Assembly: GCF_018141545.1 (NCBI RefSeq)
Contig: NZ_CP064356.1
Span: 2,431,001-2,495,000, forward strand
Source of the DNA: Miltoncostaea oceani
Lineage (GTDB): Bacteria; Actinomycetota; Thermoleophilia; Miltoncostaeales; Miltoncostaeaceae
Reading direction: 5' to 3'
DNA length: 64,000 nt
Both the position numbers and the translations under genes were made by a program. Below are positions 1 to 21,926 of the stretch, in pieces. The notes under the pieces were generated by a model. The model worked only from the letters and a program-made list of their open reading frames with translations, made no database searches and was not told the DNA's origin. Each line of letters starts with the position of its first letter. Position 1 is the stretch's first letter.

Positions 1-1040
1 GCGGGTCGCGGCGCCGCGATCGGGGCGGCGGACGTGCCCGGGACGGTCGTGGCGTGCGTGTGCGCCACGGGCGCCGCCGGGGCGGACGGGCCGCCGGAGG
101 AGATCGCGGGCAGGGTGACCGCGCCCCCGCCGATCACGGCGACGCTCACGAGGGCCGCCACCTTCGCGCCGACGCCGCCGGCCCCGGCGAGGACCGACAG
201 GCCCGTGACCGAGGAGCCGCCCGTCGCGGCGCCCGAGGCCGTCACCGCCGCGCCCGACGACGTCGCCGAGCCGATGATGTGGGCCGCCGTCAGGGCGGGG
301 ACGCCCGCCATCGCGGCGAGGTCGGTCTGGCGGCGGCCGATCGCCCCCTGGAAGCCGGCGCACGCGGCGCAGGTGCTGAGGTGGCTGCGGAGGCGGCGGG
401 AGCGGATCACGCGGCCGTCGCCGTCCGAGACCGTCCGCCGCACGTCGGCGCAGGGGAGGTCGCGGCCGAGGTCCATGTCGTGGAGGGCCTCGCGGGCCTC
501 GCGGATGAGGTGCTTCGCCGTGCCGGTCGTGGCCCCCTCGCCGAGCTTGTCGGCGATCTCGCGGTGCGACATCCCGCCGAGCTCGCGCAGCAGCAGCGCG
601 GTGCGGGGCCGCTCGCCGAGGCTGCCGAGGTCCTCGCGCAGGCGCCGCATGCGGTCCCGCGACTCGCTCATCGCCTCGGGCTCGGAGCCGGGGTCCGGGG
701 TGTCGGCCTCGAGCGACGTCCACGGGGGACGGTCACGGACGAGGTTGAGGCAGGTGTTGCGGGCGATCCGGTAGAGCCATGGCCGCAGGGCGATCGGTGT
801 CGTCCCGCGGGAGAGGGCCCGGTGCGCCTTCAGCATCGTCGTCTGCAGCGCCTCCTCGGCGTCCTCCGCGGAGCCCGTGATGCTCCAGCAGTACCGCTGC
901 AGCGGGTCGCGGTAGCGGGAGAACAGGTCCTCGAAGGCCCGTTCGTCACCGGCGCCGACCCGCACGGCGAGCGCCCGGTCGCGGGCGTCCGGAGCGGTAC
1001 CGGCCAGGAGGGGCTGCGCAGGGCGCGGGGTGGGGTTCAC
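1..1040 (-). CDS. ECF-family sigma factor with zinc-finger and membrane tail, 3' end off window
   Basis: Translated by hand from a GTG at 1040 (VNPTPRPAQPLL...); the frame stays open to the left edge, so the C-terminus is missing. Residues 29-104 match sigma region 2 (AGDERAFEDLFSRYRDPLQR, then PWLYRIARNTCLNLVRD). About residues 130-185 match region 4 (ALLLRELGGMSHREIADKL). A short cysteine/histidine segment follows near residue 220 (HLSTCAAC, i.e. HxxxCxxC), the ZAS/zf-HC2 pattern of anti-sigma factors. After an Ala/Gly/Ser-rich stretch there is a hydrophobic segment at about 290-310 and a Pro/Ala-rich tail. The protein therefore looks like a sigma factor that carries its own anti-sigma-like and membrane parts. 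A TAGATT -10-like hexamer on this strand (1107 to 1102) could give a 55-nt leader. Family assignment is firm; the role of the tail is inferred. Confidence 0.88.
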   Translation of the reverse strand, partial: MNPTPRPAQPLLAGTAPDARDRALAVRVGAGDERAFEDLFSRYRDPLQRYCWSITGSAEDAEEALQTTMLKAHRALSRGTTPIALRPWLYRIARNTCLNLVRDRPPWTSLEADTPDPGSEPEAMSESRDRMRRLREDLGSLGERPRTALLLRELGGMSHREIADKLGEGATTGTAKHLIREAREALHDMDLGRDLPCADVRRTVSDGDGRVIRSRRLRSHLSTCAACAGFQGAIGRRQTDLAAMAGVPALTAAHIIGSATSSGAAVTASGAATGGSSVTGLSVLAGAGGVGAKVAALVSVAVIGGGAVTLPAISSGGPSAPAAPVAHTHATTVPGTSAAPIAAPRP

Positions 1041-5927: not shown

Positions 5928-7903
5928 CCGGCTCCCCCACGCTCGTCAGCGAGGCCGAGTCCTCGGCATCCGCGAGCGATCGCACCCGGTCCGTCGCCCT
6001 GCTGGTCGCGAGCACCGCGCCGCTGGTCGTGGCCCTCGTCCTGTCGTATCGCGACGGCGGCTACTTCACGACGTCGTGGGGTGGCGCCGCCATCGTCGTG
6101 CTCGCGCTGGTCGCCGCAGTCGCGGTCGCCGTCCGGACGTCGGCGGGGGGCCCTCTCGGGTGGGTCGCCGCGGGCGGGTGGGTGGCCTTCGCGGTCTGGC
6201 AGGGACTCTCGGGGCTCTGGTCCGACGAACCGGCGGCGAGCACCGCGGCGATGGGTCTGACGCTGCTCTACGCGGCGTCCTTCATCCTCGTGCTCCTCTC
6301 CTCCCGCGGCGCGACGACCCTACGCAGACTGGTCGAGCTGAGCATGCTCGTCGTCGTCCCGGTGACGGTCAGCGCCCTCGGCGCACGTCTCGTCCCCGCG
6401 ATCTTCGCAGAGGAACAGCACGGACGGTTGTCGACGCCGATCTCGTACTGGAACAACCTGGGCCTGCTGTTCGCGTTCGGCTTCGTCGTCGCCGTCGGGA
6501 TCGCGGCCGACGGGACCCGCCGGTGGCCGCTGCGGGCCGCCGCGGCGGCCACGATCCCGATGTTCCCGCTCGGCATCCTCTTCGCCCAGTCGCGTGGCGC
6601 GCTCGTCGCCCTCGTGGTCGGCGCCGCCGTGCTCGTGGCCCTGACACGCGGGAGGATCGCGACCTCCTGGATGCTCGCCGCCGCGGCCGCCACGTCGATC
6701 CCCCTGCTGGTCCACGCCAACGCCCAGGAGTCGCTGACGATCGGGCGCGTGCTGCAGGAACCCCACGACGCCGAGGGACGGCGCGTCGTCGTCGTCCTCC
6801 TGATCGGCGCGGCTGCATGCGCCCTCGCCTCCCTGGTCGTCGTGCGCCTGGGTGACGCCGTCGCCCCGGGCCGTCGTCGACTCGTCGTCGGTGGGGCGCT
6901 CGTGACCACCCTGGTCGTCGTCGCAGCGGCGGCGCTGATCGCCCGCCCACCCGACGGCGGACCCACGGCCTGGGCCGACCGGCAGTTCGAGTCGTTCAAG
7001 CGCTACGACCCGCGTGCCCGGGACAGCGCGACCACCGTCGCCGACCGACTCGCGGTGGCCGCCGGCTCGGGCCGATGGCAGAACTGGGCCGTCGCGGCCG
7101 ACCAGTTCGCGGCGTCGCCCGTCGCGGGCACGGGAGCGGGGGACTACCGCTTCCGCTGGGCCGCCGAGCGCGACATCGACGTCAACGTGCGCAACGCGCA
7201 CTCGCTGTACCTGGAGGTGCTGGGCGAATCCGGCCTGATCGGCCTGCTGCTGCTGCTCACGCCGGTCGCCGCCGTGGCGACCGGGACGGGCCTCGCCCTC
7301 CGCCGCGGCCCTCCCGCCGCGCTGGCCCGCGACCTAGGCATCGCCGCGGCGGCCGGGTCCGCCGTGCTCGTCCACCTCGCCGGCGACTGGGCGTGGCAGA
7401 TGCCGGCCGTCGTGCTCCCCGCCGTCGTGCTCGGCGCGGCGGCGCTCGCGGCGGCGACCACCGACGCGTCCGCGGCGCGCGTGCTCCCCCGTCCCGTCGC
7501 CTGGTCGATGGCGGCGGTCGCCCTGGCCGCCCTCCTCGTCGTCGCCGGAGTCGTCGGTGGCGCGGAACGTCTCGACGAGGCGCGGTCCCAGGCCGCGCGG
7601 GGCGATCTGGCGACGGCGCTGGAGTCGGCACGCCGGGCCCAGGACCTCGACCCCCAGGGGCCTGCGGCGATCCAGCTCGAGGCGAACATCAGGGCCGACC
7701 TGGGTCAGGCCGATGAGTCGGACGCGGCTTTCGCGCGAGCGGTCGGCGCGTCACCCCACGACTGGACGATCCTGGCGGACTGGGCGTCGGCCCTGCTCCG
7801 ACGGGGCGACGTGATCGCCGCCCGGCCCCTCGTCCGCCGCGCCATCCGGCTGAACCCGCGCGAACCGCGGTTGACGCTGCTGCGGCGGGACGTGGGCCTG
7901 TGA
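5924..7903 (+). CDS. O-antigen ligase/polymerase-like membrane protein with TPR tail
   Basis: About 659 residues with 11-12 hydrophobic helices, then a soluble C-terminal part. The Wzy_C/ligase region is visible where a large periplasmic loop (residues about 350-430) ends in VAGTGAGDYRFRW and NAHSLYLEVLGESGLIGLLL, the usual family pattern. Residues about 550-655 contain tandem helical repeats (SARRAQDLDPQGPAAIQLEA, then ASPHDWTILADWASALLRRG) typical of TPRs. It would polymerise or transfer lipid-linked glycan at the outer face of the membrane. Start taken at GTG 5924, which overlaps the upstream TGA by 4 nt (GTGA), the habit of this locus; ATG 5897 with GGGGGCGG upstream is an alternative. 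One of three Wzy-like proteins here. Confidence 0.85.
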   Translation: MTGSPTLVSEAESSASASDRTRSVALLVASTAPLVVALVLSYRDGGYFTTSWGGAAIVVLALVAAVAVAVRTSAGGPLGWVAAGGWVAFAVWQGLSGLWSDEPAASTAAMGLTLLYAASFILVLLSSRGATTLRRLVELSMLVVVPVTVSALGARLVPAIFAEEQHGRLSTPISYWNNLGLLFAFGFVVAVGIAADGTRRWPLRAAAAATIPMFPLGILFAQSRGALVALVVGAAVLVALTRGRIATSWMLAAAAATSIPLLVHANAQESLTIGRVLQEPHDAEGRRVVVVLLIGAAACALASLVVVRLGDAVAPGRRRLVVGGALVTTLVVVAAAALIARPPDGGPTAWADRQFESFKRYDPRARDSATTVADRLAVAAGSGRWQNWAVAADQFAASPVAGTGAGDYRFRWAAERDIDVNVRNAHSLYLEVLGESGLIGLLLLLTPVAAVATGTGLALRRGPPAALARDLGIAAAAGSAVLVHLAGDWAWQMPAVVLPAVVLGAAALAAATTDASAARVLPRPVAWSMAAVALAALLVVAGVVGGAERLDEARSQAARGDLATALESARRAQDLDPQGPAAIQLEANIRADLGQADESDAAFARAVGASPHDWTILADWASALLRRGDVIAARPLVRRAIRLNPREPRLTLLRRDVGL

Positions 7904-7911
7904 CGCACCGC

Positions 7912-8664
7912 CTAGCGCCAGAGTCCCCGCCGGCGTCGCGGCGTGGACGGACGGGAGGGGATGCCTTCCCCGGCGACGATCGCGGCGGGCACGTCGTGTG
8001 TCATCCATCGAGCGACGGCGGGGTCCCCCACGGCCTCGGCCGCGGCGGCCATACCGACGGCGCGCACCCCGGGCATGTGGGCGTCGCTGGCGATCACATG
8101 TGCGAGGCCGAGGTCGAGCAGCCGCCGCGCGGCGGTCGCCGCACGGCGCCCCAGCCGCCGGTCGACGGACGCGGCGGTCAACTGGATGAGGGCTCCCGCC
8201 TCGACGAGAGGGCCGATCCGCTCCGGGCGCGCCTGAACGTCGGCGTTGCGCTCCGGGTGGGCGATGACCGCGGTCACGCCGCTCCCGCTCAGGCGCTCGA
8301 TCTCGGACGGCAGTGGGAGCGGCCATCCGTCGTACGGGAACTCGACCAGGACGTAGCGTCCCGCCCCCCCGAGGCTGAAGCGCGCCATCGTCCGGGCGTC
8401 CATCGCCATCAGCTGCTCGAGGGCGACCTCGCCACCCGTCCACAGTTCCAGCGGCACCCCCTCGGAGTCGAGCGCCGCCCGCACCCGATCGACCGCGGAT
8501 TCCATACGTTCGGGGGGTGTCGGGTAGTCGTGCCGGACGTGAGGCGTCGCTACGATCGCCGTGATCCCGTCACGTACGGCGTGACGCGCGAGCTCGACGC
8601 TGTCGTCCATGGTGCGCGCCCCGTCGTCGAGTCCCGGGAGTATGTGGCTGTGGATGTCGATCAA
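7912..8664 (-). CDS. PHP-family protein-tyrosine phosphatase (CpsB/YwqE type)
   Basis: A 250-residue metal-dependent phosphatase that would dephosphorylate the neighbouring BY-kinase. Metal-binding motifs of the PHP fold are all present: IDIHSHILPGLDDGA at the N-terminus, IVATPHV, GGEVALE, YVLVEFPYDG, VIAHPERN and VIASDAHMPG. The start is set at TTG 8664 because family members begin at (M)IDIHxH and GGGAAGA lies upstream; a GTG at 8709 would add a poorly conserved extension. Odd: in most capsule loci it is co-directional with the kinase, but here it lies on the opposite strand, divergent from the kinase and only 8 bp from the convergent ligase gene. Confidence 0.9.
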   Translation of the reverse strand: MIDIHSHILPGLDDGARTMDDSVELARHAVRDGITAIVATPHVRHDYPTPPERMESAVDRVRAALDSEGVPLELWTGGEVALEQLMAMDARTMARFSLGGAGRYVLVEFPYDGWPLPLPSEIERLSGSGVTAVIAHPERNADVQARPERIGPLVEAGALIQLTAASVDRRLGRRAATAARRLLDLGLAHVIASDAHMPGVRAVGMAAAAEAVGDPAVARWMTHDVPAAIVAGEGIPSRPSTPRRRRGLWR

Positions 8665-8720
8665 TCTCGTCTTCCCGGTACCGAAGAGCCCGTCGTCAAA
8701 CTGAAGCACGGGAGCCGCTG

Positions 8721-10325
8721 ATGGAGACCGGACGCGAGTCGAGCCTCTCCGAACCCCTCGCACTCAAGCGCATTCTGGCGATCCTGCGCCGGCGGTGGTG
8801 GATCGTGGCACTCGCCGCCGTCATCGTCCCGGTGGTCGCGGTGTTCATCTCGTCACGGCAGGACCCGGTCTACCAGTCCAGCGCGGACGTCCTGATCAAC
8901 CAGCAGAACCTCGCGGCGGTCCTGACGGGGACCACCGACTTCTCGATCTCACGCGACCCGGCGCGCATCACCGAGACCCAGGCGCGGATCGCCCGCTCAC
9001 CCGAGGTCGCCAAGCTCACGGTCGAGACGGTCGGCGTGCCCGAGCTGGGCGCCGGCGGGCTGCTCGGCTCGTCGTCGGTCACCCCCGACAGCAAATCCGA
9101 CCTGCTGACGTTCAGCGTGTCCCAGGGCGACGCGGATCTGGCGGGGCGCCTCGCGACCGAGTACGCCCGCCAGTACATCGCCTACCGGCTCCGTCTGGAC
9201 ACGTCGGCGATCGCCGAGGCCCGGACCGAGCTGGCGGGTCGCATCGCGGAGGTGAGAGCCGAGGGCGGCTCCGACGCCCTGCTGACCGAGCTGACGGGGA
9301 ACCTGCAGACCCTCCAGACGCTGAGTTCGTTGCAGACGTCGAACGCCGTGATGGTCCGCGAGGCGGGCAGCGGGAGCCAGACCTCACCGAACCCCCGCCG
9401 CAACGGCCTGCTCGGGTTGGGGCTCGGCCTGATCCTCGGAGTCGGCCTGGCGTTCCTGCGCGAGTCGCTCGACAACCGCGTCCGCAGCGCCGAGGAGATC
9501 AGCGACCGCCTCGGTCTGACCCTCCTGGCCCGTCTGCCCGAGCCACCCCGACGCATGCGCACCACCAATCGGCTCGTGATGATGGACGACCCGGGGAGCG
9601 TCCAGGCCGAGGCCTTCCGGATGCTGCGCACGAACCTCGACTTCGTGAACGCCGACCGGCGGGCTCGGACGATCGCCGTCACGAGCGCGGTCAACGACGA
9701 GGGCAAGTCGACCTCGGCCGCCAATCTGGCCGTCGTCCTCGCCCTTGCCGGGAGCCGCGTCATCCTCGTCGACCTCGACCTGCGGCGGCCGACCGTCCAC
9801 CGGTTCTTCGGGCTGCCGGACCGTCCCGGCGTGACCGATGTCGCCGTCGAGGACCTGGACCTCAGCGAGGCGCTGGTCGACGTCCCGCTCGAGCTGGACG
9901 ACCGGTCGAGCGCGGTGCCGCGCAACGGCGCCCCGGGTCACCGGCCCGGCCTGGCGGTGCTGCCGAGCGGGCCGATCCCCCGCGACGCCGGCGAACTGGC
10001 CGCGAGTCGTGCGCTCGGGTCGCTGCTCGCACGCCTCCGCGACCAGTGCGACGTCGTGATCATCGACACGCCGCCCCTGCTGAGGGTCGGAGACACGATG
10101 GCCCTGAGCGTCTACGTCGATGCCCTGGTGATCGTCGCGCGGATGAACGTGGTGTCGCGGCCGATGCTCGCGGAGGTCTCGCGGCTGTTGCGCCGCATGC
10201 GCGCGGTGAAGCTCGGGGTGGTCGTCACCGGCGCGCAGACCGGCGACGCGTACGGCGGCGCCTACTACGGCTACGGCCAGAAGGAGGCCCTCGCGGCCCC
10301 GCCCCGCGAGCGCTCGCCGCGATGA
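8721..10325 (+). CDS. Wzz-type chain-length protein fused to BY-kinase (tyrosine autokinase)
   Basis: A 534-residue fusion of polysaccharide co-polymerase and kinase. Residues about 13-45 hold the first membrane helix (RRRWWIVALAAVIVPVVAVF), followed by the extracytoplasmic Wzz domain and a second helix at about 228-245 (LLGLGLGLILGVGLAFLRES). The kinase domain has Walker A (SAVNDEGKST, about 323), Walker A' (VILVDLDLRRP, about 350) and Walker B (VVIIDTPPLL, about 445). The tail holds a tyrosine cluster (YGGAYYGYG, about 513-521), the usual autophosphorylation sites. An insertion of about 20 residues (LELDDRSSAVPRNGAPG) lies between A' and B. It should set chain length for the Wzy products and be reset by the adjacent PHP phosphatase. 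GGGAG precedes the ATG. Confidence 0.92.
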   Translation: METGRESSLSEPLALKRILAILRRRWWIVALAAVIVPVVAVFISSRQDPVYQSSADVLINQQNLAAVLTGTTDFSISRDPARITETQARIARSPEVAKLTVETVGVPELGAGGLLGSSSVTPDSKSDLLTFSVSQGDADLAGRLATEYARQYIAYRLRLDTSAIAEARTELAGRIAEVRAEGGSDALLTELTGNLQTLQTLSSLQTSNAVMVREAGSGSQTSPNPRRNGLLGLGLGLILGVGLAFLRESLDNRVRSAEEISDRLGLTLLARLPEPPRRMRTTNRLVMMDDPGSVQAEAFRMLRTNLDFVNADRRARTIAVTSAVNDEGKSTSAANLAVVLALAGSRVILVDLDLRRPTVHRFFGLPDRPGVTDVAVEDLDLSEALVDVPLELDDRSSAVPRNGAPGHRPGLAVLPSGPIPRDAGELAASRALGSLLARLRDQCDVVIIDTPPLLRVGDTMALSVYVDALVIVARMNVVSRPMLAEVSRLLRRMRAVKLGVVVTGAQTGDAYGGAYYGYGQKEALAAPPRERSPR

Positions 10326-12658
10326 CCGGCGCCACGGGGGCGCCGGGCGGCCGCCACGCGGCGGCGGCTCGGCCCACGCCCCTGATGCTCGGGATGGGGT
10401 GGTTCCCCGACCAGCCCGGCGGTCTCAACAGGTACTTCCGCGACCTGCACACGGCCCTCGCGGCCGACGGCACGACGGCGCCCTCCGTCGTGATCGGCCC
10501 CGCCGACGACGCGCCGGACGAGGTCCGTGCGGTGTCGGGCAACCACGCGCCGCTCCCCGCACGGGTCTGGGGCTACGCCGCCGCAGCCCGTGCCCGGGCC
10601 GCGGACGCGGGGCTCATCGACGCCCACTTCGCCCTGTACGGCCTCGCGGCGGTGCGGATGCCCGGGCTCCGCAGGCTCCCCGTCGTCGTGCACTTCCATG
10701 GTCCGTGGGCGGCCGAGGGACACGCCACCGGCGCCGCTCGGAATGTCGCCGTCAAACGCATCGTCGAACGCCTCGCCTACCGGCGCGGGCGCCACTTCAT
10801 CACCCTGTCGCGCGCCTTCCGGCAGACGCTCGTCGAGACCTACGGGATCGCCCCGTGGCACGTCTCGGTCGTGCCGCCGGGGGTCGACCTCGATCGGTTC
10901 ACCCCGGGTGACGGCGGCGAACGGGCCCGCCTCGGCGTCCCGGAGGACGCATGGACGGCCGTGGTCGCCCGACGCCTCGTGCCCCGGATGGGTATCGACG
11001 TCCTGCTCCGCGCGTGGGCGGCCCTCGGGGACACGGACGACGGCCGACGCCTCCTCACGATCGTGGGGGACGGTCCGCTGCGCCCCGAACTGGAGCGACT
11101 CGCCGCCGACCTCGACGTCTCGTCGAGCGTGCGCTTCACGGGACGTGTCACCGACGAGGCCCTGCGCGACTGGTACCGCGCCGCCGATGTCTGCGTGGTC
11201 CCCACCGTCGCGCTGGAGGGGTTCGGGCTGGTCGTCGTCGAGGCGCTCGCCTGCGGGACGCCGACCGTCGTCTCCGACGTCGGGGGACTCCCCGAGGCGA
11301 CCGCGGGCCTCGGTGGCGCCGTCGTGGTGCCGGCGGGCGACGGAGGCGCGCTCGCGGACCGGCTCGGCGCCGCCCGCGACGGCAGCCGTCCGCTGCCGGC
11401 CCCGGCCGAGTGCCGGGCCCACGCGGAGCGCTTCGGGTGGGATGTCGCGGTCGCGACCCACCGACGCATCTACGAGGCGGTCACGCGTGGCACACCGAGG
11501 ACACGGGCGCGGGTGGTCTTCCTGGACCACTGCGCCGCGTTGTCGGGTGGCGAGCTCGCCCTGGCCCGGACGATTCCGGCCCTGGAGCGGGTCGACGCCC
11601 ACGTGATCCTCGCGGAGGAGGGTCCCCTCGTCGAACTGCTGCGCGACCGCGGCATCTCCGTGGAGGTGCTGACGATGGACGAGGACGCACGTGGCCTGGG
11701 GCGTGGGAGGGTGACGCCGGGTGGCGTGCCCCTCGGTGCGGCGTGGGCGTCGGCCGCCCACGTCGCCGCCCTGGTCCGCCGACTGCGGCGGCTGCGGCCG
11801 GACCTCGTCCACACGAACTCCCTGAAGGCGGCGGTCTACGGCGCGGCCGCCGGGCGCGTCGCCGGTGTCCCCGTGATCTGGCACGTACGTGACCGCATCG
11901 CGGCGGACTATCTGCCCGCCGCCGCCGTCCGCCTCATCCGGGGGATGGCGCGGACCCTGCCGAGCGCGATCATCGCCAACAGCGAGACCACCCGGGCGGA
12001 GCTGCCGGCGGTGTCGTGCCCCGTCGAGGTGATCCCGAGTCCCGTCCCGGCCGCGGTGGCGTCGCCGGCGGACCGCGACGCGGGGGAGCCCTTCCGGGTC
12101 GGACTCGTGGGTCGGATCGCGCCGTGGAAGGGGCAGCACCTCTTCATCGACGCCTTCGCGCGCGCGTTCGGCGAGGGTCGCGAGGAGGGGGCGATCATCG
12201 GTTCGCCCCTCTTCGGTGAGGAGGAGTACGCACAGGAGGTGCGGCAGGCGAGCGCGCGGCTCGGTCTGGGCGACCGCGTCTCCTTCCGCGGGTTCCGCGA
12301 GGACGTCCCCGCCGAGCTGGCGCGCCTCGACGTCCTGGTGCACGCCTCGACGATCCCCGAACCGCTCGGGCAGACGGTGCTCGAGGGGATGGCGGCCGGT
12401 CTCCCGGTCGTCGTGCCCGACGCGGGCGGCCCGGCGGAGGTCGTCATCGACGGCGCGAACGGCATGCACTACCCCCTCGGCGACCCCGCCGGTATGGCGG
12501 ATGCGCTGCGGCGGCTTCGCGACGACCACGGCCTGCGCAGCCGTCTGGGGGCGGCGGCGCCGGCCGCGCTGCACCGTTTCGCGCCGGAGGTCGTGGGCGC
12601 ACGGATCGAGGCGCTGTACGCGCGCGTCCTGGACACGGGGCCCGGCCGGTCCGCATGA
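10322..12658 (+). CDS. two GT4 glycosyltransferases fused in one protein
   Basis: A 778-residue protein starting at ATG 10322 (ATGA overlap with the kinase stop). It contains two complete GT-B enzymes. The first (residues about 18-385) starts LMLGMGWFPDQPGGLNRYFR and has HFHGPW, VPPGVDLDRF, LVPRMGIDVLLRAW and the donor-site signature ALEGFGLVVVEALACGTPTV. The second (about 390-770) starts RVVFLDHCAALSGGELALAR and has HTNSLKAAVYGAAAG, VGRIAPWKGQHLFIDAF and PEPLGQTVLEGMAAGLPVVV. No stop codon separates them and the join is short (RGTPRTRARV), so both would be made as one chain. This would let one polypeptide add two successive sugars on the cytoplasmic face. Donor and acceptor unknown. Confidence 0.88.
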   Translation: MTGATGAPGGRHAAAARPTPLMLGMGWFPDQPGGLNRYFRDLHTALAADGTTAPSVVIGPADDAPDEVRAVSGNHAPLPARVWGYAAAARARAADAGLIDAHFALYGLAAVRMPGLRRLPVVVHFHGPWAAEGHATGAARNVAVKRIVERLAYRRGRHFITLSRAFRQTLVETYGIAPWHVSVVPPGVDLDRFTPGDGGERARLGVPEDAWTAVVARRLVPRMGIDVLLRAWAALGDTDDGRRLLTIVGDGPLRPELERLAADLDVSSSVRFTGRVTDEALRDWYRAADVCVVPTVALEGFGLVVVEALACGTPTVVSDVGGLPEATAGLGGAVVVPAGDGGALADRLGAARDGSRPLPAPAECRAHAERFGWDVAVATHRRIYEAVTRGTPRTRARVVFLDHCAALSGGELALARTIPALERVDAHVILAEEGPLVELLRDRGISVEVLTMDEDARGLGRGRVTPGGVPLGAAWASAAHVAALVRRLRRLRPDLVHTNSLKAAVYGAAAGRVAGVPVIWHVRDRIAADYLPAAAVRLIRGMARTLPSAIIANSETTRAELPAVSCPVEVIPSPVPAAVASPADRDAGEPFRVGLVGRIAPWKGQHLFIDAFARAFGEGREEGAIIGSPLFGEEEYAQEVRQASARLGLGDRVSFRGFREDVPAELARLDVLVHASTIPEPLGQTVLEGMAAGLPVVVPDAGGPAEVVIDGANGMHYPLGDPAGMADALRRLRDDHGLRSRLGAAAPAALHRFAPEVVGARIEALYARVLDTGPGRSA

Positions 12659-13758
12659 GGGTCGCGATCGTCCACGACTACCTGACGCAGCGCGGAGGCG
12701 CGGAACGCGTGGTGCTGGCGATCGCCCGGGCCTTCCCGGACGCCCCGATCCACACGTCCCTCTACGACCCGGACGGCACGTTCCCCGGGTTCGCCGATCT
12801 CGACGTGCGCCCGTCGGCGATCGACCGGCTGCCGGGGCTGCGACGCCACCACCGCCTCGCGTTCCCGTTGCTGGCGCCGACGTTCTCGCGGATGCGGATC
12901 GACGCCGACGTCGTGATCTGCAGCTCGAGCGGCTGGGCGCACGGCGTCAGCACCACCGGGGGCAAGCTCGTCTACTGCTACAACCCGGCCCGGTGGCTCT
13001 ACCAGGCGCACCAGTACAGCCGGCGCCTGAGCCTCACGCGGCTCGCGGGATCGCTCCTCGGGTCGCCGCTGCGATCCTGGGACCGGCGGGCCGCCAGGTC
13101 CGCGGACGCGTACGTCACGATCTCCACCGTCGTCCAGCGGAGGATCGAGGCGGCCTACGGCATCAGGGCCACGATCCTGCCCCCTCCCCCGGGCCTCGAC
13201 GCCAGGGGGCCGGCACGGCCCGTCCCCGGCCTCGCGCCGGGTTTCGTACTCTGCGTGTCGAGGTTGTTGCCCTACAAGAACGTGGATGCCGTCGTCCGTG
13301 CGTTCGCAGGGATGCCGGACGAGAGGCTGGCCGTCGTCGGGGACGGTCCCGATCGAGTTCGACTCCGCTCCCTCGCCGGTCCGAACGTCGACCTGCTCGG
13401 AAGCGTGGACGACGCCACTCTCCGGTGGCTCTACGCGAACAGCCGCGGTGTGGTCGCCGCGTCGTATGAAGATCTCGGCCTCACCCCCATCGAAGCGGCG
13501 GCATTCGGCCGCCCCTCCGCCGTCCTCCGCTGGGGCGGGTTCCTCGACACGGTCGAGGAGGGCCGGACGGGCGTCTTCTTCGATCGACCCGATCCGGAGG
13601 CGATCGCCGACGGAGTGCGACGCATCCTCGCCCGGCAGTGGGCCACCGCCGACCTCGACGACCTGTGCGAGCGTCACGCGCCCTCCGCGTTCGAGCGCGC
13701 GATGCAGGGTGCGGCGCTCGCGGTCGCCGGCGCCCCCCGAGCCGAATCGCGCCCGTGA
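12655..13758 (+). CDS. GT4 glycosyltransferase (WbaZ-like)
   Basis: A 367-residue GT-B enzyme, ATG overlapping the previous stop (ATGA). N-terminal acceptor half: RVAIVHDYLTQRGGAERVVL, then VVICSSSGWAHG and YCYNPARWLYQ, which are typical of WbaZ-type mannosyl/galactosyltransferases. Donor half: VSRLLPYKNVDAVVRAFAGM, AVVGDGPDR and AASYEDLGLTPIEAAAFGRP with the expected acidic residues. Soluble and probably membrane-associated, acting on lipid-linked intermediates. Sugar specificity cannot be read from sequence. Confidence 0.9.
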   Translation: MRVAIVHDYLTQRGGAERVVLAIARAFPDAPIHTSLYDPDGTFPGFADLDVRPSAIDRLPGLRRHHRLAFPLLAPTFSRMRIDADVVICSSSGWAHGVSTTGGKLVYCYNPARWLYQAHQYSRRLSLTRLAGSLLGSPLRSWDRRAARSADAYVTISTVVQRRIEAAYGIRATILPPPPGLDARGPARPVPGLAPGFVLCVSRLLPYKNVDAVVRAFAGMPDERLAVVGDGPDRVRLRSLAGPNVDLLGSVDDATLRWLYANSRGVVAASYEDLGLTPIEAAAFGRPSAVLRWGGFLDTVEEGRTGVFFDRPDPEAIADGVRRILARQWATADLDDLCERHAPSAFERAMQGAALAVAGAPRAESRP

Positions 13759-16700
13759 CCCGCCTCCGGGGAACGCGCGGGGCCCGGCGGGGCGCCGGCG
13801 TCGTGCTGATGGCGGGCCTCCTGCTCCTCGGGGCGTTCGGCACGCACGCGGTGGGCCAGCAGATACCGATCCCGCCGGCGCCCGACGCCCCTCCGATCCC
13901 GACGCCGCCCCCCGACCCCGACCCGGTGCCGCCCCCCGCGCCGAACCCCATCCCCACGCCGACGCCCGCGGCCCCCGCTCCGGCGACGCCCGCCCCCTCT
14001 CCGCCGGCCACGTCCCCGGCCCCCAGCGGACCCACGGCCGCCGAACGCGCCGCGGCGGCCCGGCGCGCCGCCCTACGGCGCGAGAGGGCACGGGCCCTCG
14101 AGGCCCGGCGACGCGCGGCCGCAGAGCGCAGGGACCGGCGCGCAGCCACCCAGGCGGATGTGGTGGCCGCATCCCTGATCGGGACCGCACGCGCGGTGCC
14201 CCGGACCACGGAAGCGGCGGTAGCCGACGCGTCGGCGAACGACGGGGACGATTCGGCGGGTGTCGGCCGCGCGATCGTCCTCGCGGCACTCAGCTTCGCG
14301 TTCGTGTGCTCGATCGCGCTCGGGATCGCCGCCGCGGTCCGCCGTCGGACCACCCGCGACGGCGACCCGACGGTCCGCACGCGTGCGGGACCGGGCCTCG
14401 CCCGCAGAGTCGCCGGGCGACCCATGGTGACCACGTTCGCCACCACGGCGGCGATGCTCGGGGTCAACCTGGTGACGGGCGTCATCATCGCGCGAGCCCT
14501 CGGGCCGGACGGCCGCGGCGAGGTCAGCGCGATCCTCGCCCTTCCCCAGACCCTCGCCTGGCTCTTCGCGTTCGGGGCCTTCCAGGCGATCGTCTACCAC
14601 CAGTCACGGAATCCGCGCGACGCGCCCTCCGTCCTCGGCACCTGGCTCGCGGTGACCATCCCGCTCGGACTGCTCGCCGTCGTCGTCGGCGAAGTGCTCG
14701 TACCGGTGCTGCTCGGGGCCCAGACCCCGGACGCGATCGCGCTGGGGCGCGTGTACGTCGGCCTCACCCTCGTGACGCTGTTCTCATCGGTGTTCCTCGG
14801 CATCGTCCTGGGCGATCGGGAGTTCGGCTTCTACAACGGGATACGCCTGTGCCAGTCCCTCGGGATCGCCGCCGGCTATCTCGTGCTGTGGCCGCTCGGC
14901 GCCCTGACGGTCGGTGCCGCGCTCGCCGTGACCGCAACCGTGCTCCTCATCTCGCTGGTGGTCGTCGCCGCGAAGGTCGTCCGCCGCCACGGCGTGACGC
15001 GCCCCGACCGGGGACTGCTCCGGACGACCGGCTGGTTCGGCGTCCGTGCCCACGCGACCGACCTGAGCGGCGTCGGCAACCTCCGCCTCGACCTCACCGT
15101 CATCCCGGCGTTCCTCGTGGCCACCCAGGTCGGGCTCTACGCCGTCGCCGCGACCATCGCCGGCATCCTCATGTCCCTCGCGGGCTCCACCGCAGCCGTC
15201 GTGCTGCCGACGGCGGCCCGTGATCGGGCGGGGGCACCACGGGTCGTGGCGCGAGCGGCGGTCGCGGCCCTCGGTGTCTGCGGCGCGATCGGCGCGGTCC
15301 TGTGGATCTTCGCTCCGTACGCGATCGAGTTGGTCTACGGGGACGACTTCTCCGGCAGCGTCGAACTGCTCCGCATCCTGATCCCGGGGGCCGTCCTCTT
15401 CGGAGCGGCGGGGATCGTGGGCCAGGGGCTGACAGCCCTGGGCCGGCCCTTCACCGCCGCCGCCGGCCAGCTGGTCGGTCTCGCGATCACCGTGATCGGC
15501 CTCCTCCTCCTGCTCCCCGACGGAGGGGTACGCGCCGCGGCCTGGGTGTCCCTCGGCGCATATGCGGCGGTCTTCCTCGTGACCTCCGTGCTCTACATCG
15601 TCGTCGCGCGCCGCGGCGCCGTGGCCGAACCACACGGTGTCGGAGCGGCACCTGCGGCGGTGGAGCACGCACGGCCGAGGCGGGCCGCCCGGGAGCGCCC
15701 TGCACCGGGCCCGGCTCCCCTGGCCGCCGCCCGGGCGTTCGCACGGGCCCACCCCGGTGCCCGCGACACCATCGCGTTCGCGCTCGGGCTCGTCGCGATG
15801 GCGTTCGTCGTCGGTGCCGCCGTCGCCACCGAAGGGAACGCCCGGGTGGCGATCGTCGGCGCCGTGCTCGCGCTCGTCGCGGGGCTCGGTGTCGCCTCAT
15901 CCCGGCTCCTGCTGCCCGCGCTCGTCGTCTGGCTCGCCGGCCTCGGCCTCCTGCGCCGGATGGTCACCGAACTCATCGAACCGACCGCCCAGGATCTCCT
16001 CCTGCTCGTCGGACCGACGCTCGTCATCGTCCTGGTGATCGGGACGCACCGCACGGATCGCACGATCCGCGACCGCCCCCTGTCGAAGCTGGTCGCGGTC
16101 TTCGGTGTGCTGGTGTTCCTGGCGGCGGTCAACCCCCTCGGGGGATCCCCCCTCGCGGGCGCCTCGAGCCTGCTCTTCGTCCTCATCCCCGTCCTGGGGT
16201 ACTGGGTCGGGACACGCATCGACGACACGACCCTCCTCCGGGTGCTCGCCCTGATGGCGGGCCTCGGGGTCGTGACGGGCCTGTACGGGCTCTACCAGAC
16301 GTTCAGCGGCTTCCCCTCGTGGGACCAGACCTGGATCGACACCTCCGGCTACGCCGCGCTCCGCGTCGGCAAGGACACCGTCCGCGCCTTCTCGACGTTC
16401 TCGTCCTCGTCCGAGTACACGATCTACCTCGCCATCGCGATCGTGGTCCTGCTGGCGTTCGCGTTCCGGCGCGCACGCTTCGTGCCGATCCTGATCGTGC
16501 CGTTGACGATGCTGGTGATCGCCTTGTTCTACGTGGGCTCGCGCGCGCCGATCTTCAAGATCGTGGCGGCGTTCGCGCTGATGGTCGCGGCATACAGGGG
16601 GATGCGCCTGGTCTCGGCTCTCGCCGTCGCGACGGTTCTGATCGTGCTGGTGCCCACGGTCGTCGCAGCCGTGGCCCCCGCCCAATCGGACAATGCGCTG

Positions 16701-17198
16701 GTGACGCGTCAGGTCGAAGGGTTGAGCAACCCCACCAGCTCGGAGGACTCGACGATCGGGTTCTACGTCGTCCTGCTGCGCGACAGCTTCGTCGACAGCT
16801 TCACCCAGCCTCTCGGCTCCGGTCTCGCCCGAGTCACGATCGCCGGCGACAAGTTCGGGGGGGAGACCTTGACGACCGAGACGGATCCGGCGACCGCCGC
16901 CGTGGCGATGGGGCTCCCAGGGCTCGCGGTGTTCCTCGCCATTCTCGGACTGGGTTTCGTGCGCGCCTACACGCTCGCGCGGCGTCGTCGGGACTTCCTC
17001 GCACTCGCCGGCCTCGGCATCCTCGTCGTCACCCTGCTCCAATGGCTCGCCGGTGGACAGTACGCGGTCGCTCTGCTGCCGTGGCTCGTGATCGGCTGGG
17101 CCGAGGCGCGGAGCCGGCCGCGTCGTTCTCGGCGCGCTGGCCACGCGCCGGTCGAGGTGGATGACCCCCACCACGCCGAGATGGTGGGCGCCCGATGA
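13755..17198 (+). CDS. stalk - Wzx flippase - Wzy polymerase triple fusion
   Basis: A 1147-residue membrane protein, GTG 13755 overlapping the previous stop (GTGA). Three parts are visible. (1) Residues 1-about 205: signal peptide or first helix (AGVVLMAGLLLLGAFGTHAV), Pro-rich stretch, Ala/Arg-rich probable coiled coil (about 95-130), then a helix (AIVLAALSFAFVCSIALGIA). (2) About 224-620: polysaccharide flippase of the MOP superfamily (MVTTFATTAAMLGVNLVTGV, IIARALGPDGRGEVSAILAL, GFYNGIRLCQSLGIAAGYL). (3) About 665-1120: Wzy-like polymerase with many helices, DTVRAFSTFSSSSEYTIYLA and FYVGSRAPIFKIVAAF. There is no internal stop. Flipping and polymerising a repeat unit would be physically linked. 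An internal start near ATG 14424 (flippase) could also yield shorter forms. Confidence 0.82.
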   Translation: MTRLRGTRGARRGAGVVLMAGLLLLGAFGTHAVGQQIPIPPAPDAPPIPTPPPDPDPVPPPAPNPIPTPTPAAPAPATPAPSPPATSPAPSGPTAAERAAAARRAALRRERARALEARRRAAAERRDRRAATQADVVAASLIGTARAVPRTTEAAVADASANDGDDSAGVGRAIVLAALSFAFVCSIALGIAAAVRRRTTRDGDPTVRTRAGPGLARRVAGRPMVTTFATTAAMLGVNLVTGVIIARALGPDGRGEVSAILALPQTLAWLFAFGAFQAIVYHQSRNPRDAPSVLGTWLAVTIPLGLLAVVVGEVLVPVLLGAQTPDAIALGRVYVGLTLVTLFSSVFLGIVLGDREFGFYNGIRLCQSLGIAAGYLVLWPLGALTVGAALAVTATVLLISLVVVAAKVVRRHGVTRPDRGLLRTTGWFGVRAHATDLSGVGNLRLDLTVIPAFLVATQVGLYAVAATIAGILMSLAGSTAAVVLPTAARDRAGAPRVVARAAVAALGVCGAIGAVLWIFAPYAIELVYGDDFSGSVELLRILIPGAVLFGAAGIVGQGLTALGRPFTAAAGQLVGLAITVIGLLLLLPDGGVRAAAWVSLGAYAAVFLVTSVLYIVVARRGAVAEPHGVGAAPAAVEHARPRRAARERPAPGPAPLAAARAFARAHPGARDTIAFALGLVAMAFVVGAAVATEGNARVAIVGAVLALVAGLGVASSRLLLPALVVWLAGLGLLRRMVTELIEPTAQDLLLLVGPTLVIVLVIGTHRTDRTIRDRPLSKLVAVFGVLVFLAAVNPLGGSPLAGASSLLFVLIPVLGYWVGTRIDDTTLLRVLALMAGLGVVTGLYGLYQTFSGFPSWDQTWIDTSGYAALRVGKDTVRAFSTFSSSSEYTIYLAIAIVVLLAFAFRRARFVPILIVPLTMLVIALFYVGSRAPIFKIVAAFALMVAAYRGMRLVSALAVATVLIVLVPTVVAAVAPAQSDNALVTRQVEGLSNPTSSEDSTIGFYVVLLRDSFVDSFTQPLGSGLARVTIAGDKFGGETLTTETDPATAAVAMGLPGLAVFLAILGLGFVRAYTLARRRRDFLALAGLGILVVTLLQWLAGGQYAVALLPWLVIGWAEARSRPRRSRRAGHAPVEVDDPHHAEMVGAR

Positions 17199-18169
17199 CC
17201 GATGCCGGTCGCCGCGCCGGCGGGGACTCCCCCGCCGCCTCCTTCTCGGTCGTGGTGCCGACCCATGGGCGAAGCGGCCCTCTGCGCCTGTGCCTCCAAG
17301 CGCTCGGGGCGCAGGAGCGGCCCCCCGATGAGGTGATCGTGGCCCACGCCGGGGACGAGGCGGCGAGGGCCGTGATCGAGGACGAGTTCCCCTGGGTCCT
17401 ACAGGCCGTCATCAAGAGGCCGTCGTACCTCGACGGGCTCCGCGCCGGGGCATCCCGCGCGACGGGCGACGTGATCTGCTTCACCGACGACGACGCCGCG
17501 CCGCGACCGGACTGGCTGGCCCGGGCCGCCGCCCGACTGGCGGACCCCGGCATCGGGGCAGTCGGCGGCCGCGACGTCCTGCGAGGCGTCGTCCCGGTGC
17601 CCGGCATCCCCGTGGGTGTGATCGGCCGGTGGGGCCGGCTCAGCGGCAACCACCACCTGGGTACGGGCGACGCGCGGGACGTCGACGTACTGAAGGGGGT
17701 GAACATCGCCGTCCGCCGAGATGCGCTCGCGTTCCCGCTCGACCTGGCGGGTGGCTCGACGCACCACCACTTCGAGGTCGCCCTCGGTCTCTGGGTGCGA
17801 CGCCAGGGCCTCCGGGTGGTCTTCGACCCTCTCATGCTGGTAGAGCACGATCCGGCGGTCCGTGCCGACGGGAGCATCCGGTTCTCGGATGAGGCGACGC
17901 TGGCCGAGGCGTCGTGCTTCAACCTCGCCTACGGGATCCTGTCCCTGCGTCCCGACCTCCGCGTGCGCCGGTCGGCGTACGGCGTGCTGGTCGGCGACCG
18001 GGACGTGCCGGGGGTCGGCCGCGCGGTCGCTGCCCTCGTGGCGGGCGACCGTCGCGTGGTCCGCCGCCTCCTCCCGTCGCTGCGCGGCCAGGGCCGTGCG
18101 GCATGGCGGGTCGCCCGCAGGCGCCCGCTGCGCATGATCGCGCTCGACGGGCGCGTCCGCGTCCCGTGA
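17195..18169 (+). CDS. GT2 glycosyltransferase
   Basis: A 324-residue GT-A enzyme, ATG 17195 overlapping the previous stop. The nucleotide-sugar-binding fold starts SFSVVVPTHGRSGPLRLCLQ; GDVICFTDDDAAPRPDWLAR holds the DxD metal site; VDVLKGVNIAVRRDALAF marks the acceptor side. The C-terminal 80 residues are Arg/Val-rich and amphipathic, possibly membrane-associated, as in other members of this locus. Cytoplasmic addition of one sugar to the lipid-linked unit is expected. Confidence 0.88.
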   Translation: MTDAGRRAGGDSPAASFSVVVPTHGRSGPLRLCLQALGAQERPPDEVIVAHAGDEAARAVIEDEFPWVLQAVIKRPSYLDGLRAGASRATGDVICFTDDDAAPRPDWLARAAARLADPGIGAVGGRDVLRGVVPVPGIPVGVIGRWGRLSGNHHLGTGDARDVDVLKGVNIAVRRDALAFPLDLAGGSTHHHFEVALGLWVRRQGLRVVFDPLMLVEHDPAVRADGSIRFSDEATLAEASCFNLAYGILSLRPDLRVRRSAYGVLVGDRDVPGVGRAVAALVAGDRRVVRRLLPSLRGQGRAAWRVARRRPLRMIALDGRVRVP

Positions 18170-19788
18170 GGGCGGTGATCGACCGACGCCTCCTGATCGG
18201 TGCCCTGGCGGCACTGGTCGTCTGCGGCACCGCCCTCGGAATCGCCGCCCGCGACGCCGGGCAGGAGCGCTGGCGCGCGGAGACCACGGTGACGGTCGAG
18301 GACGACGGCTCGCGCTCGTGGGAGGAGATCGGTCGTGCCACCGTCGCCCTCATGCAGTCCGACGCGGTGAGGGACCGCGCGGCGGCGGAGGCGCGGATCG
18401 GGGCGGACACCGTCGCCGGACGCACGACGGCGGATTCGTCCTACCTCGACTGGCGCGACGTCACGGTCGGCGCCACCGGCCGCGATCGGGCGGGGAGCGT
18501 CGCCCTGCTGTCCGCCCTCGTCTCCGCCGCCGAGGCGGCGAGCCCCCCGCAACTCCGGTGGAGCACCGGCCCGACGGGTGCCACGCGCGACGACCCCCCG
18601 CTGCCCCTGCTCGGGCTCCTCGCCCTTGTCGGCACCGTATCTGCCGGCGCGGCCGCGGCGTTCCTGGCGCATGCGACGCGTGCGACGGGCACCGGCCGGG
18701 TGCTCGCGGCGGCCGCGACCGCCGCGTGCGCGCTCGCGGCCCTGGTGTGCGCCGGCGCCCTCACCTCCGGCGACCCGTCATGGTTCGCCCTCAACGTCGC
18801 CCTCGCACCGTTGATCGCCGTCGGGGTCGGCCTCGCAGCCGAACGCGTCACGAGTGGTGCCCTCATCGCCGCGCTCGCCGGCCTCCTCGCAGCCCTGGCG
18901 GTCTGGTCGTCCGTGATCTGGTTGAGCGGCAGTGAGACGTCGGTCGGTGTGTCCCTCGGCGACGGCGTCGAGCGACGCATCTTCCCGTCGTCCTTCGGGC
19001 ACCCCGGCCATTACGGGGCCGCGCTCGCGATGCTGCTGCCGTTCGCCGTGGCAGGGTCGTGGAACGGGCCCCGCCTGCGGCGGGGACTGTTCGTCGTCGC
19101 AGCGGTGGTCGGGGTCATGGCCATCGCGCTGACGTACGCCCGGGCCGCGTGGATCGCCGCGCTGGTCGGGGCGTTCATCGCCCTGCCGACCGTGCGGGCG
19201 CGCCTGATCACCGCGGGCGCCGGGATCGTGGTCGTCGCCCCGCTCCTCCCACTGCTCGCCGACCGTGCCACCACGTCCGACTGGACCGACAACGTCCGGC
19301 TGGACATCTGGGGTCGCGCACTCGAGATCGTCGCCGCGCATCCGTTCCTCGGCGTGGGTGTCGGGGGGTTCGGTCGCTACGCGGAACCGGTCTTCCTCCC
19401 GTTCTCGGCGGTGCGCCCCGGACACGCCCACAACCTCTTCCTCAACGTCGCCGCGGAGTCCGGCGTGCCGGCGCTCGCGGCACTGCTCGCCGGCCTCGTG
19501 TGCCTGTCACTGGCACTCGCGCGGGGCCTCCGCCGGAGGGCGGACGGATCCGGGGTACCGGCGGTGGTCGATGCCGCACTCGCGCGGGCGTCCCTGGGGG
19601 CCCTCGCCGCGATCGTCGTCGCCGGGCTCCTCGACGTCGCCGTGTACCAGCGCTACACCCTCGTCCTCGCCGGCATCGTGGCGGGTGCGGGGGCGGTGGG
19701 GGCTGCACGTCTGGCCGGTCGCGCGGACCCCTCCCGCCCCGGACGGGACGCCTCGTCCGATGACCGCGCGATGGCGGGGTCGCGGTGA
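18166..19788 (+). CDS. Wzz-like domain fused to O-antigen ligase/polymerase
   Basis: A 540-residue protein, GTG 18166 overlapping the previous stop (GTGA). Residues 1-about 165 look like a reduced chain-length regulator: helix (RRLLIGALAALVVCGTALGI), a small exported part with a beta start (WRAETTVTVEDDG), and a second helix (LPLLGLLALVGTVSAGAAAA). The rest is a ten-or-so-helix Wzy_C/ligase domain with the loop motifs NVRLDIWGRALEIVAAHPFL, GVGVGGFGRYAE and HAHNLFLNVAAESGVPALAA. It is the third polymerase-like protein of the locus. The Wzz call rests on topology and position only, so confidence in that half is low. Confidence 0.78.
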   Translation: MRAVIDRRLLIGALAALVVCGTALGIAARDAGQERWRAETTVTVEDDGSRSWEEIGRATVALMQSDAVRDRAAAEARIGADTVAGRTTADSSYLDWRDVTVGATGRDRAGSVALLSALVSAAEAASPPQLRWSTGPTGATRDDPPLPLLGLLALVGTVSAGAAAAFLAHATRATGTGRVLAAAATAACALAALVCAGALTSGDPSWFALNVALAPLIAVGVGLAAERVTSGALIAALAGLLAALAVWSSVIWLSGSETSVGVSLGDGVERRIFPSSFGHPGHYGAALAMLLPFAVAGSWNGPRLRRGLFVVAAVVGVMAIALTYARAAWIAALVGAFIALPTVRARLITAGAGIVVVAPLLPLLADRATTSDWTDNVRLDIWGRALEIVAAHPFLGVGVGGFGRYAEPVFLPFSAVRPGHAHNLFLNVAAESGVPALAALLAGLVCLSLALARGLRRRADGSGVPAVVDAALARASLGALAAIVVAGLLDVAVYQRYTLVLAGIVAGAGAVGAARLAGRADPSRPGRDASSDDRAMAGSR

Positions 19789-21926
19789 GCGGAGACACCG
19801 CCGAGCGCCCCATCCGGGTCGCCCTGGTCGCCCACGACATCCACTGGGAGGGCGGGATGGAGCGAGCCATGGCCGAGCTCATCTCGACCGCACCTCCGCA
19901 TGTCCGGTTCACGGTGGTCTCGGCGACGTTGGCGCCGGAGCTGCGGCATCTCGTCGAGTGGCGTCGGGTGGATGTGCCACGCCGCCCCTTCCCGGCGAAG
20001 TTCACGGCCTTCTACATCCGGTCGGCCCGGGCGGTCAGGGGGCTCGACGTCGATCTCATCCACACCTGCGGCGCCCTCACCGCCGCGCGGGCCGACCTCG
20101 CGAGCGTCCACTTCTGCCACCACGGCTACGTCCGCGCCGCGCGGATGCTCTCAGCCGGGGGCCCGCCCCTGCGACGCGTCAACACCACCGTGAGCCGCCT
20201 CCTCGCCCTGGCGGCGGAGCGCGTGGCGTACCGCCCGTCCCGGTTGCGCCTCGCCGCCTGCGTGTCGGACGGCGTCGCACGGGAGATGCACGTCGCCTTC
20301 CCGGGGCTCGTCACGGCCATCACGCCGAACGGCGTCGACAGCGCGCACTACCGACCCGACCCGGCGACTCGCGCCGCGGTTCGCGATCAGCACGGCGCGG
20401 GGGCGGCGACCGTCGCACTCTTCGTGGGTGGCGACTGGAACCGCAAGGGACTGCCCATCGCCATCGAGGCCGTCCGGCGGGCACGGCGCGGTGGGAGCGA
20501 CGTCGTCCTCTGGGTCGTGGGGTCCGGCGACGTCGGACGGATGCGCCGTGAGCACGGCGGCGGTGTGGAGGAGGTCGTCACGTTCCTCGGCGCGGTGAAG
20601 GACCCGGCGCCGTTCTACGTCGCCGCCGACGTCCTCGTTCTCCCGAGCCTCTACGAGACGTTCTCACTCGTCGCCCACGAAGCGGCCGCCTGCGGTCTGC
20701 CCGTCGTCGGGACCCGCGTCCACGGTGTGGATGCGCTGGTCACCCGAGGGGAGGGCGGGCTGATGGTCGAGCGCGGCGCGGAGGCGTTCGCGGAAGCCCT
20801 CGTCGCTCTGGCCGAGGACCCCCCCGCCCGCCGACGCCTCGGTGACGCCGGACGCCGCTACGCACACGCGCACCCGTGGCGCGCATCCGTCAGGGCGGTG
20901 ACCGGTGCGTACGACGAATTGGTGCGCAGCGACCGCGGCGACGCAGAGACCCCGGGCGGCGCCCGCCGTCCATCGACGTCCGCCGGCAGCCGATCCGGCA
21001 GCATCGAATCACGGAACGGAACCACCGGACAGCGACAAGGGAGCAGACCGCCGATGGTGGCGAACCGCATGATGACAGGCGTCCGGAGGGCATCCGCCAC
21101 GGTCGGCGCGATGACGGGCGAGGCGCGATCCGCGGTCGCACTCACCGCGGCGGGGCGTTCGCGGGCCCGGCTTCTCACCGACGTCTTCGTCTACCGGGCG
21201 ATACGCGGGCACCTCGTCACCCGATCCGACACCGCGGTGCGAACAGTGACACTGAGGGACGGACAGCGGGTTCGCTATCGCCGGAATCGCGGCGACCTCC
21301 AGAGCTTCCGCGAGGTCTTCTACGATCGTCACTACGAGCCTCTCCCCGGGATGACGGCCCGTACCATCCTCGATGTCGGTGCCAACATCGGCCTGACCTC
21401 CATCTGGCTGGCCCGGCAGTTCCCCGGAGCCGTGATCGTCGCCGTCGAGCCGGCCCCGGACAACGCCGATCTCGTCCGTCAGAACGCCGTGCTCAACGGC
21501 GCGCAGGTCACCGTCGTCGAGGGGGCGGTCGCATGCACGGAGGGGACGACCACGTTCGCCGCGTCCGCGGAGTCGAACCTGGGACGGCTCGCGGAGGGCG
21601 GGGACCTGGTCGTCAGGACGACGACGCTCGCGCGGCTGCTCGACTCGTTCCCCTCGGGTCGCGCCGACATCCTCAAACTCGACGTGGAGGGAGCAGAGGC
21701 GGAGATACTCCTGAACGACGACGGTGCGCTTCAGAGAGTGGGAGCGGTCGCCACCGAGTTCCACCCTCAGGTCACCGGCGTCGCCGACGCCGTTCTCGAG
21801 GAGGCGTTGAGGTCAGCAGGCTTCACCGAGGCGCGGGGACGCGGCCAACTGACCACATGGTGGTGGCGGCCGGAATGGGACTGGGGATCGACGGACCCCC
21901 CGTCGGCAGCCGTCGATGACGGGTGA
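19785..21926 (+). CDS. GT4 glycosyltransferase fused to FkbM-family methyltransferase
   Basis: A 713-residue frame from GTG 19785 (GTGA overlap). Residues 1-about 385 are a GT4 enzyme (RVALVAHDIHWEGGMERAMA, AITPNGVDSAHY, LFVGGDWNRKGLPIAIEA, PSLYETFSLVAHEAAACGLP). Residues about 425-705 are an FkbM SAM-dependent O-methyltransferase (ILDVGANIGLTSIWLARQFP, VAVEPAPDNADLVRQN, DILKLDVEGAEAEILL). The join (about 386-423) is Ser/Arg/Gly-rich and reads like translated intergenic DNA. AAGGGAG at 21037-21043 followed by ATG 21054 (residue 424) could start a separate methyltransferase. Either this is a true fusion, or the GT4 stop codon has been lost or hidden by a sequence error. Confidence 0.8.
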   Translation: MSGDTAERPIRVALVAHDIHWEGGMERAMAELISTAPPHVRFTVVSATLAPELRHLVEWRRVDVPRRPFPAKFTAFYIRSARAVRGLDVDLIHTCGALTAARADLASVHFCHHGYVRAARMLSAGGPPLRRVNTTVSRLLALAAERVAYRPSRLRLAACVSDGVAREMHVAFPGLVTAITPNGVDSAHYRPDPATRAAVRDQHGAGAATVALFVGGDWNRKGLPIAIEAVRRARRGGSDVVLWVVGSGDVGRMRREHGGGVEEVVTFLGAVKDPAPFYVAADVLVLPSLYETFSLVAHEAAACGLPVVGTRVHGVDALVTRGEGGLMVERGAEAFAEALVALAEDPPARRRLGDAGRRYAHAHPWRASVRAVTGAYDELVRSDRGDAETPGGARRPSTSAGSRSGSIESRNGTTGQRQGSRPPMVANRMMTGVRRASATVGAMTGEARSAVALTAAGRSRARLLTDVFVYRAIRGHLVTRSDTAVRTVTLRDGQRVRYRRNRGDLQSFREVFYDRHYEPLPGMTARTILDVGANIGLTSIWLARQFPGAVIVAVEPAPDNADLVRQNAVLNGAQVTVVEGAVACTEGTTTFAASAESNLGRLAEGGDLVVRTTTLARLLDSFPSGRADILKLDVEGAEAEILLNDDGALQRVGAVATEFHPQVTGVADAVLEEALRSAGFTEARGRGQLTTWWWRPEWDWGSTDPPSAAVDDG

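Follow-up and report, generated by a model that had tools for sequence, protein, structure and literature searches.

The window analysed here is a 64,000 nt stretch of the Miltoncostaea oceani genome (NCBI RefSeq assembly GCF_018141545.1, contig NZ_CP064356.1, forward strand nt 2,431,001–2,495,000), and positions are counted from its first nucleotide unless another contig is named. The left part of the window carries the following genes:

3841–5376, + strand: initiating sugar-phosphate transferase (Bac_transf; PF02397, 5.5e-62)
5543–7903, + strand: frame containing the third Wzy_C domain of the window (domain at about 6815–7258) and C-terminal TPRs; the frame start is approximate
7912–8763, − strand: CpsB/CapC-type phosphatase (PF19567, 2.3e-44)
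8721–10325, + strand: polysaccharide co-polymerase (Wzz; PF02706) with an attached AAA domain of the kinase type
10322–12658, + strand: two GT4 glycosyltransferases in one frame (two stretches, each matching PF13692 and PF00534; the start lies in an ATGA overlap)
12655–13758, + strand: GT4 glycosyltransferase, directly upstream of the fused gene
13755–17198, + strand: the entire fused gene, stalk + Wzx + linker + Wzy, 1147 aa in a single open frame
17195–18169, + strand: GT2 glycosyltransferase, directly downstream of the fused gene
18166–19788, + strand: second Wzy_C protein (PF04932, 1.7e-14), its N terminus carrying a TM-ectodomain-TM module
19785–21926, + strand: GT4 glycosyltransferase fused to an FkbM methyltransferase

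The operon runs in the order Wzz-kinase, GT4-GT4, GT4, stalk-Wzx-Wzy, GT2, TM-ectodomain-TM-Wzy_C and GT4-FkbM, with ATGA or GTGA overlaps at the 10322, 12655, 17195, 18166 and 19785 boundaries. The CpsB/CapC phosphatase, the initiating sugar-phosphate transferase and the third Wzy_C gene lie upstream of it. Judged from the predicted functions of these genes, this is a Wzx/Wzy-type exopolysaccharide locus. It seems to be rich in gene fusions, as seen in the GT4-GT4 (10322–12658) and GT4-FkbM (19785–21926) frames. The second Wzy_C protein (18166–19788) has a co-polymerase-like N-terminal layout with no match to a Wzz profile, and may be a co-polymerase–polymerase fusion, while the Wzy_C/TPR gene at 5543–7903 is possibly the ligase of the pathway. 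Elsewhere in the window (46232–48126), two adjacent GT2 frames have near-identical protein starts and are likely to reflect a recent tandem duplication.

The fused gene begins with GTG, ends with TGA and has no internal stops. Its start forms a 4-base GTGA overlap with the upstream stop at 13755, and its own stop an ATGA overlap with the next gene. The alternative flippase-only start, ATG 14424, would leave a gap of 0.67 kb in an otherwise gapless operon, and the inclusion of the stalk in the gene, as proposed in a sequence-only reading of this DNA, is upheld. Long chance frames are common in high-GC DNA, so that openness by itself is weak evidence for a gene of this length. Codon usage, trained on the other genes of the window, prefers frame 0 over the Wzx, linker and Wzy segments; the preference is strong inside both domains and weak in the linker (+0.03 to +0.08 bits per codon), and for the Pro-rich stretch of the stalk the frame is undecided by this measure. 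Stops are absent from all forward frames between 15581 and 16035, the region of the Wzx–Wzy junction, which means that no one insertion or deletion could have run two genes together there, and a frameshift joining overlapping genes was dropped as an explanation on the same ground. The sequence-only reading had described a single frame of 1147 residues and had named about 15600–15770 as the place to look for a missed stop or frameshift; the assembled sequence offers no stop there in any forward frame, and the single frame stands. Without a stop after Wzx, ribosomes translating Wzx must continue into the Wzy half. The Wzx and the Wzy-type half are confirmed to be one gene and one polypeptide, a real fusion, with the following parts:

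13797–13853, + strand: signal-like first transmembrane segment, residues 15–33 (hydropathy peak 1.91)
13854–14036, + strand: Pro-rich stretch, residues 34–94 (29 of 61 residues are Pro), predicted to be extracytoplasmic; mostly pLDDT <50
14037–14237, + strand: Arg/Ala-rich helix, residues 95–161, predicted as a single continuous helix
14271–14327, + strand: second stalk transmembrane segment, residues 173–191 (hydropathy 2.55), followed by RRR
14418–15617, + strand: Wzx (MOP) flippase, about residues 222–621 (PF01943; structural match to WzxE)
15618–15767, + strand: flexible linker, about residues 622–671, Arg/Ala/Pro-rich and predicted to be cytoplasmic (pLDDT <50 at 624–660)
15768–17108, + strand: Wzy_C/WaaL-fold half, about residues 672–1118 (weak PF04932 match; structure matches)

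The stalk (residues 1–223) has five Arg and no acidic residues ahead of its first transmembrane segment, and its two transmembrane segments flank the Pro-rich stretch and the Arg/Ala-rich helix, the latter modelled with pLDDT values of up to 90 at residues 91–120. No Pfam family, PF02706 included, matched residues 1–223. A Wzz/co-polymerase identity for the stalk was rejected because of the missing PF02706 match, the likeness being limited to the two-transmembrane layout. No convincing relatives of the stalk were found in 98 other genomes of the class, and NCBIfam and PDB sequence searches returned low-complexity matches to the Pro-rich stretch only.

In the whole protein, PF01943 matches residues 230–488 (E = 1.7e-7; 31.4 bits against a cut-off of 28.2), and when the flippase domain is searched alone PF01943 and PF13440 are both above their curated cut-offs (33.7 and 31.0 bits). 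The best solved match is WzxE (Foldseek E = 4.8e-10); the model of this half aligns with WzxE (PDB 9g9n) over 393 residues (Z = 34.5, rmsd = 3.4) and with MurJ at Z = 31.6. There are 12 hydropathy segments in the flippase, so that Wzx should end, and the Wzy half begin, in the cytoplasm, which fits the basic character of the linker, itself predicted to be disordered. R247 and R444 are near-invariant among flippase homologues and are putative counterparts of R44 and R239 of the WzxE cavity. Profiles and model agree with the sequence-only reading that the protein contains a complete MOP/Wzx flippase, located here at about residues 222–621, for which translocation of lipid-linked sugars is predicted.

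The C-terminal half is divergent. PF04932 (Wzy_C) matches residues 919–1061 of the window protein at E = 0.0067 and 16.7 bits, below the cut-off of 31.7, but a stand-alone homologue in genome G145 (41% identical) lies above it (E = 4.4e-9, 36.7 bits), as does the homologue in genome G045 (36.7 bits). In the full-length model the list of solved folds was filled by flippase matches, and the Wzy half was therefore modelled separately, giving a model of moderate confidence (pLDDT 71, pTM 0.74) that was built on 18 sequences. Folded alone, it resembles WaaL (7tpg, Z = 13.4 over 335 residues), FtsW (Z = 11.4) and RodA (Z = 10.9); the same three proteins are the top Foldseek matches, none with E below 0.001. 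The conserved Arg of the G-x-R motif and the Pro-Leu-Gly-x-Gly motif are retained. The 'AHN' motif of Wzy_C lacks its His here, and an E-x-D lies nearby (residues 1042–1044, nt 16878–16886). Most aligned Wzy_C proteins have the His-Asn motif, while the G145 and G045 homologues likewise have E-x-D instead, and the subfamily that includes these three proteins also has an F-P-S-W-D insertion. These data support a predicted complete domain of the Wzy/WaaL superfamily. Since the AHN His is absent, with E-x-D nearby in its place, the activity of this half is not assured, and a polymerase rather than a ligase role is something that we infer, since neither PF04932 nor the fold distinguishes polymerases from ligases, and the window has two more Wzy_C genes. 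Of the 'complete Wzy-like polymerase' proposed from the sequence alone, the superfamily assignment was borne out (WaaL-type fold, homologues above the PF04932 cut-off), and the choice of polymerase over ligase was not.

Homologue searches used the fused protein without its stalk. The stalk-Wzx-Wzy fusion was not found elsewhere, either in 61 genomes of the genus, family and class or in 149 genomes of the class, and the search of 61 genomes gave no detectable homologue of the window protein in close relatives. The nearest homologues of both halves (flippase 48%, Wzy 41%) are on a single contig of G145, which belongs to another family of the class. Here a flippase-GT4 fusion of 831 aa (L040:5409-7904, − strand) is followed by a separate Wzy as the next gene, in a cluster that also holds GT4s and a co-polymerase-type kinase protein recognised by sequence. 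In G045 the homologues of the two halves are encoded separately, with about 9 kb between them. Given the separate genes in these nearest homologues, the ancestral state was probably also separate and the window fusion derived. A scan of the genome collection returned only one locus (L013) with flippase and polymerase adjacent, and there they overlap yet are separate genes. Frames of 800–1317 aa around other flippases of the class were considered as further fusions, but those read were chance upstream extensions in high-GC DNA. The exception, L146:1093-4494 (− strand) in genome G003, is a MOP flippase whose frame runs on into another large membrane region, one that has no Pfam match; this region is reminiscent of a GT-C transferase, and the frame is possibly another kind of flippase–transferase fusion.

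A second Wzx–Wzy fusion occurs in the same genome outside the window. It encodes 997 aa (G000:C1:3004269-3007262, L047:9270-12263), lacks the stalk, and clears the cut-offs of both profiles by a wide margin (E = 2.9e-28 and 6.4e-22). Full-length, single-frame orthologues are present in four more genomes of the family, namely G003, a member of the same genus (69% identity), G018 (65%), G009 (63%) and G017 (53%), and a homologue of a PCP/kinase-like gene lies directly upstream in five of the five genomes. The linker of the closest pair (G018/G009) differs by 12 synonymous and 5 non-synonymous codon changes, which shows purifying selection on it in that pair, and none of the start-capable codons recurs in all five linkers; both observations indicate that the linker is translated. 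Among 198 genomes of the phylum (a draw that did not include G009, G017 and G018), full-length matches were limited to G000, the source genome, and G003, the remaining matches covering one half only, as in G048, where the halves are separate. A plasmid search with the second fusion returned only separate, distant flippases or ligases. In maximum-likelihood trees of the Wzx and Wzy halves, the window fusion groups with the G145/G045 homologues, apart from the second fusion. The well-supported branches of either tree require two changes, so the join of Wzx to Wzy arose at least twice, independently. The sequence-only reading had known of no standard example of its stalk-Wzx-Wzy order, had asked for the same order in related genomes and had treated a lack of the fusion in close relatives as telling against it. 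The implied uniqueness of the Wzx–Wzy order does not survive, since M. oceani also has a stalkless fusion in this order, one that has become fixed in some relatives; the exact arrangement with a stalk was not found elsewhere. Close relatives do lack the window fusion, but they equally lack any detectable homologue of it.

Several explanations can be weighed for these data. An artefact of sequencing or assembly that joined two genes is extremely unlikely: the exact fusion is seen in one assembly only, but with a stop-free junction two genes could not be recovered by any one insertion or deletion, codon usage points to frame 0 all the way through Wzx, linker and Wzy, if weakly at the linker, and four further assemblies bear out the second Wzx–Wzy fusion that this genome contains. 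It is very unlikely, though slightly less so, that the gene still yields two functional proteins, through translation that starts internally at GTG 15621, GTG 15660 or ATG 15798 or through cleavage of the linker by a protease. These start codons are in frame and the linker is predicted to be disordered; against this, no Shine-Dalgarno-like sequence was found before any of the three, although coupled genes of this operon lack clear ones too, and the linkers of the second fusion have no start-capable codon in common.

A neutral fusion, in which a stop was lost between adjacent coupled genes and the tether between two unchanged halves is functionless, would suit the tightly packed operon with 4-base overlaps at all boundaries, the two-domain GT4-GT4 and GT4-FkbM frames adjoining it and the flexibility of the linker. 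It is nevertheless clearly unlikely, given two independent origins in one genome, the maintenance of the second fusion across several genera at 53–69% identity and the purifying selection on its linker, seen in one pair. More weight, for a reading that is still on the unlikely side, is due to a real fusion whose C-terminal half is a WaaL/O-OST-type ligase or transferase, moving a finished chain or single units to the wall or to protein while another Wzy_C gene supplies the polymerase. The failure of PF04932 and the fold to tell the two activities apart speaks for it, as do WaaL as the top solved match and the two further Wzy_C genes of the window, one with a TM-ectodomain-TM module. In the part of the G145 locus before the contig end, however, the flippase is accompanied by no Wzy_C protein other than the Wzy-half homologue, and a flippase–ligase tether would be less sensible if the substrate of the ligase were finished polymer. 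The likeliest reading, and a moderately probable one, is that the protein is a natural tethered flippase–polymerase of a Wzx/Wzy-type exopolysaccharide pathway; the points against this are that the exact fusion is known from one genome only, that its Wzy half is divergent and that either of the two other Wzy_C genes could be the polymerase.

In the tethered flippase–polymerase, the Wzx half would flip the repeat unit, linked to undecaprenyl-PP, to the outside, and the Wzy half tethered to it, acting at the outer side, would pick the unit up near its exit and add it to the growing chain. The tether would fix flipping and polymerising at 1:1 and keep them co-localised, and a direct hand-off of flipped units from the Wzx to the Wzy half is a reasonable inference. 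The two transmembrane segments would anchor the stalk, with the Pro-rich spacer and the Arg-rich helix exposed outside, where the helix may touch acidic polymer, the wall or a co-polymerase; this is a guess and the least certain step. A bolder proposal, clearly doubtful at present, is that of a one-chain assembly machine with a built-in co-polymerase-like stalk, flippase and polymerase, in which units are never free in the outer leaflet, chain length is set within the molecule and channelling has been selected at least twice in the lineage.

Wzx and Wzy have been studied as separate proteins, and it is unsettled whether the polymerase receives the flipped unit directly. Occasional architectures of the Wzx–Wzy type may sit in UniProt or InterPro without comment; our search, which covered a collection of papers, found no published Wzx–Wzy fusion. 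PMC4182512 cites genetic links of Wzx with Wzy/Wzz, and PMC10030265 describes a Wzy–Wzz complex. A natural 1:1 tether that evolved twice in the lineage and has been kept across several genera makes the coupling of flipping and polymerising testable via the linker, and structural studies of the flippase–polymerase pair gain a target that is a single chain.

Among known systems, the flippase half can be compared most closely with E. coli WzxE (PDB 9g9n), with which it shares the fold along the entire domain. The C-terminal arginine cluster of WzxE (R413-415) is reported to be necessary for full activity and is proposed to recruit the pyrophosphate; the structure paper also proposes that a flipped unit is kept at an arginine cluster until WzyE uses it (PMC11706664). 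As the structural alignment runs 222..621 to 6..416, this position appears to be taken here by ARRG (residues 618–621), at the start of the linker; whereas the Arg tail of WzxE is a free C terminus, that of the fused protein continues as the tether of another membrane enzyme, and a stalk with two transmembrane segments is added ahead of the flippase. The C-terminal half has its fold and two motifs in common with the Wzy/WaaL superfamily (PF04932; PDB 7tpg), SEDS RodA/FtsW being the next closest, and differs from most Wzy_C members, which have the His-Asn motif, in its E-x-D, its F-P-S-W-D insertion and its join to Wzx. The Wzx-GT4 fusion of G145 contains the nearest homologue of the flippase half, in a similar cluster, but the fusion partner of that flippase is a glycosyltransferase of the cytoplasmic type and not Wzy. 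The second fusion of M. oceani has the same Wzx-then-Wzy order in one frame beside a PCP/kinase gene, yet it has the canonical AHN motif, no stalk, halves from other Wzx and Wzy subfamilies, and an independent origin. The Wzc-type co-polymerases to which a kinase (BYK) domain is fused, described in PMC7310880, likewise place two functions of the Wzx/Wzy pathway on one polypeptide, but they join a length regulator to a kinase, while the window fusion would join a flippase to a polymerase.
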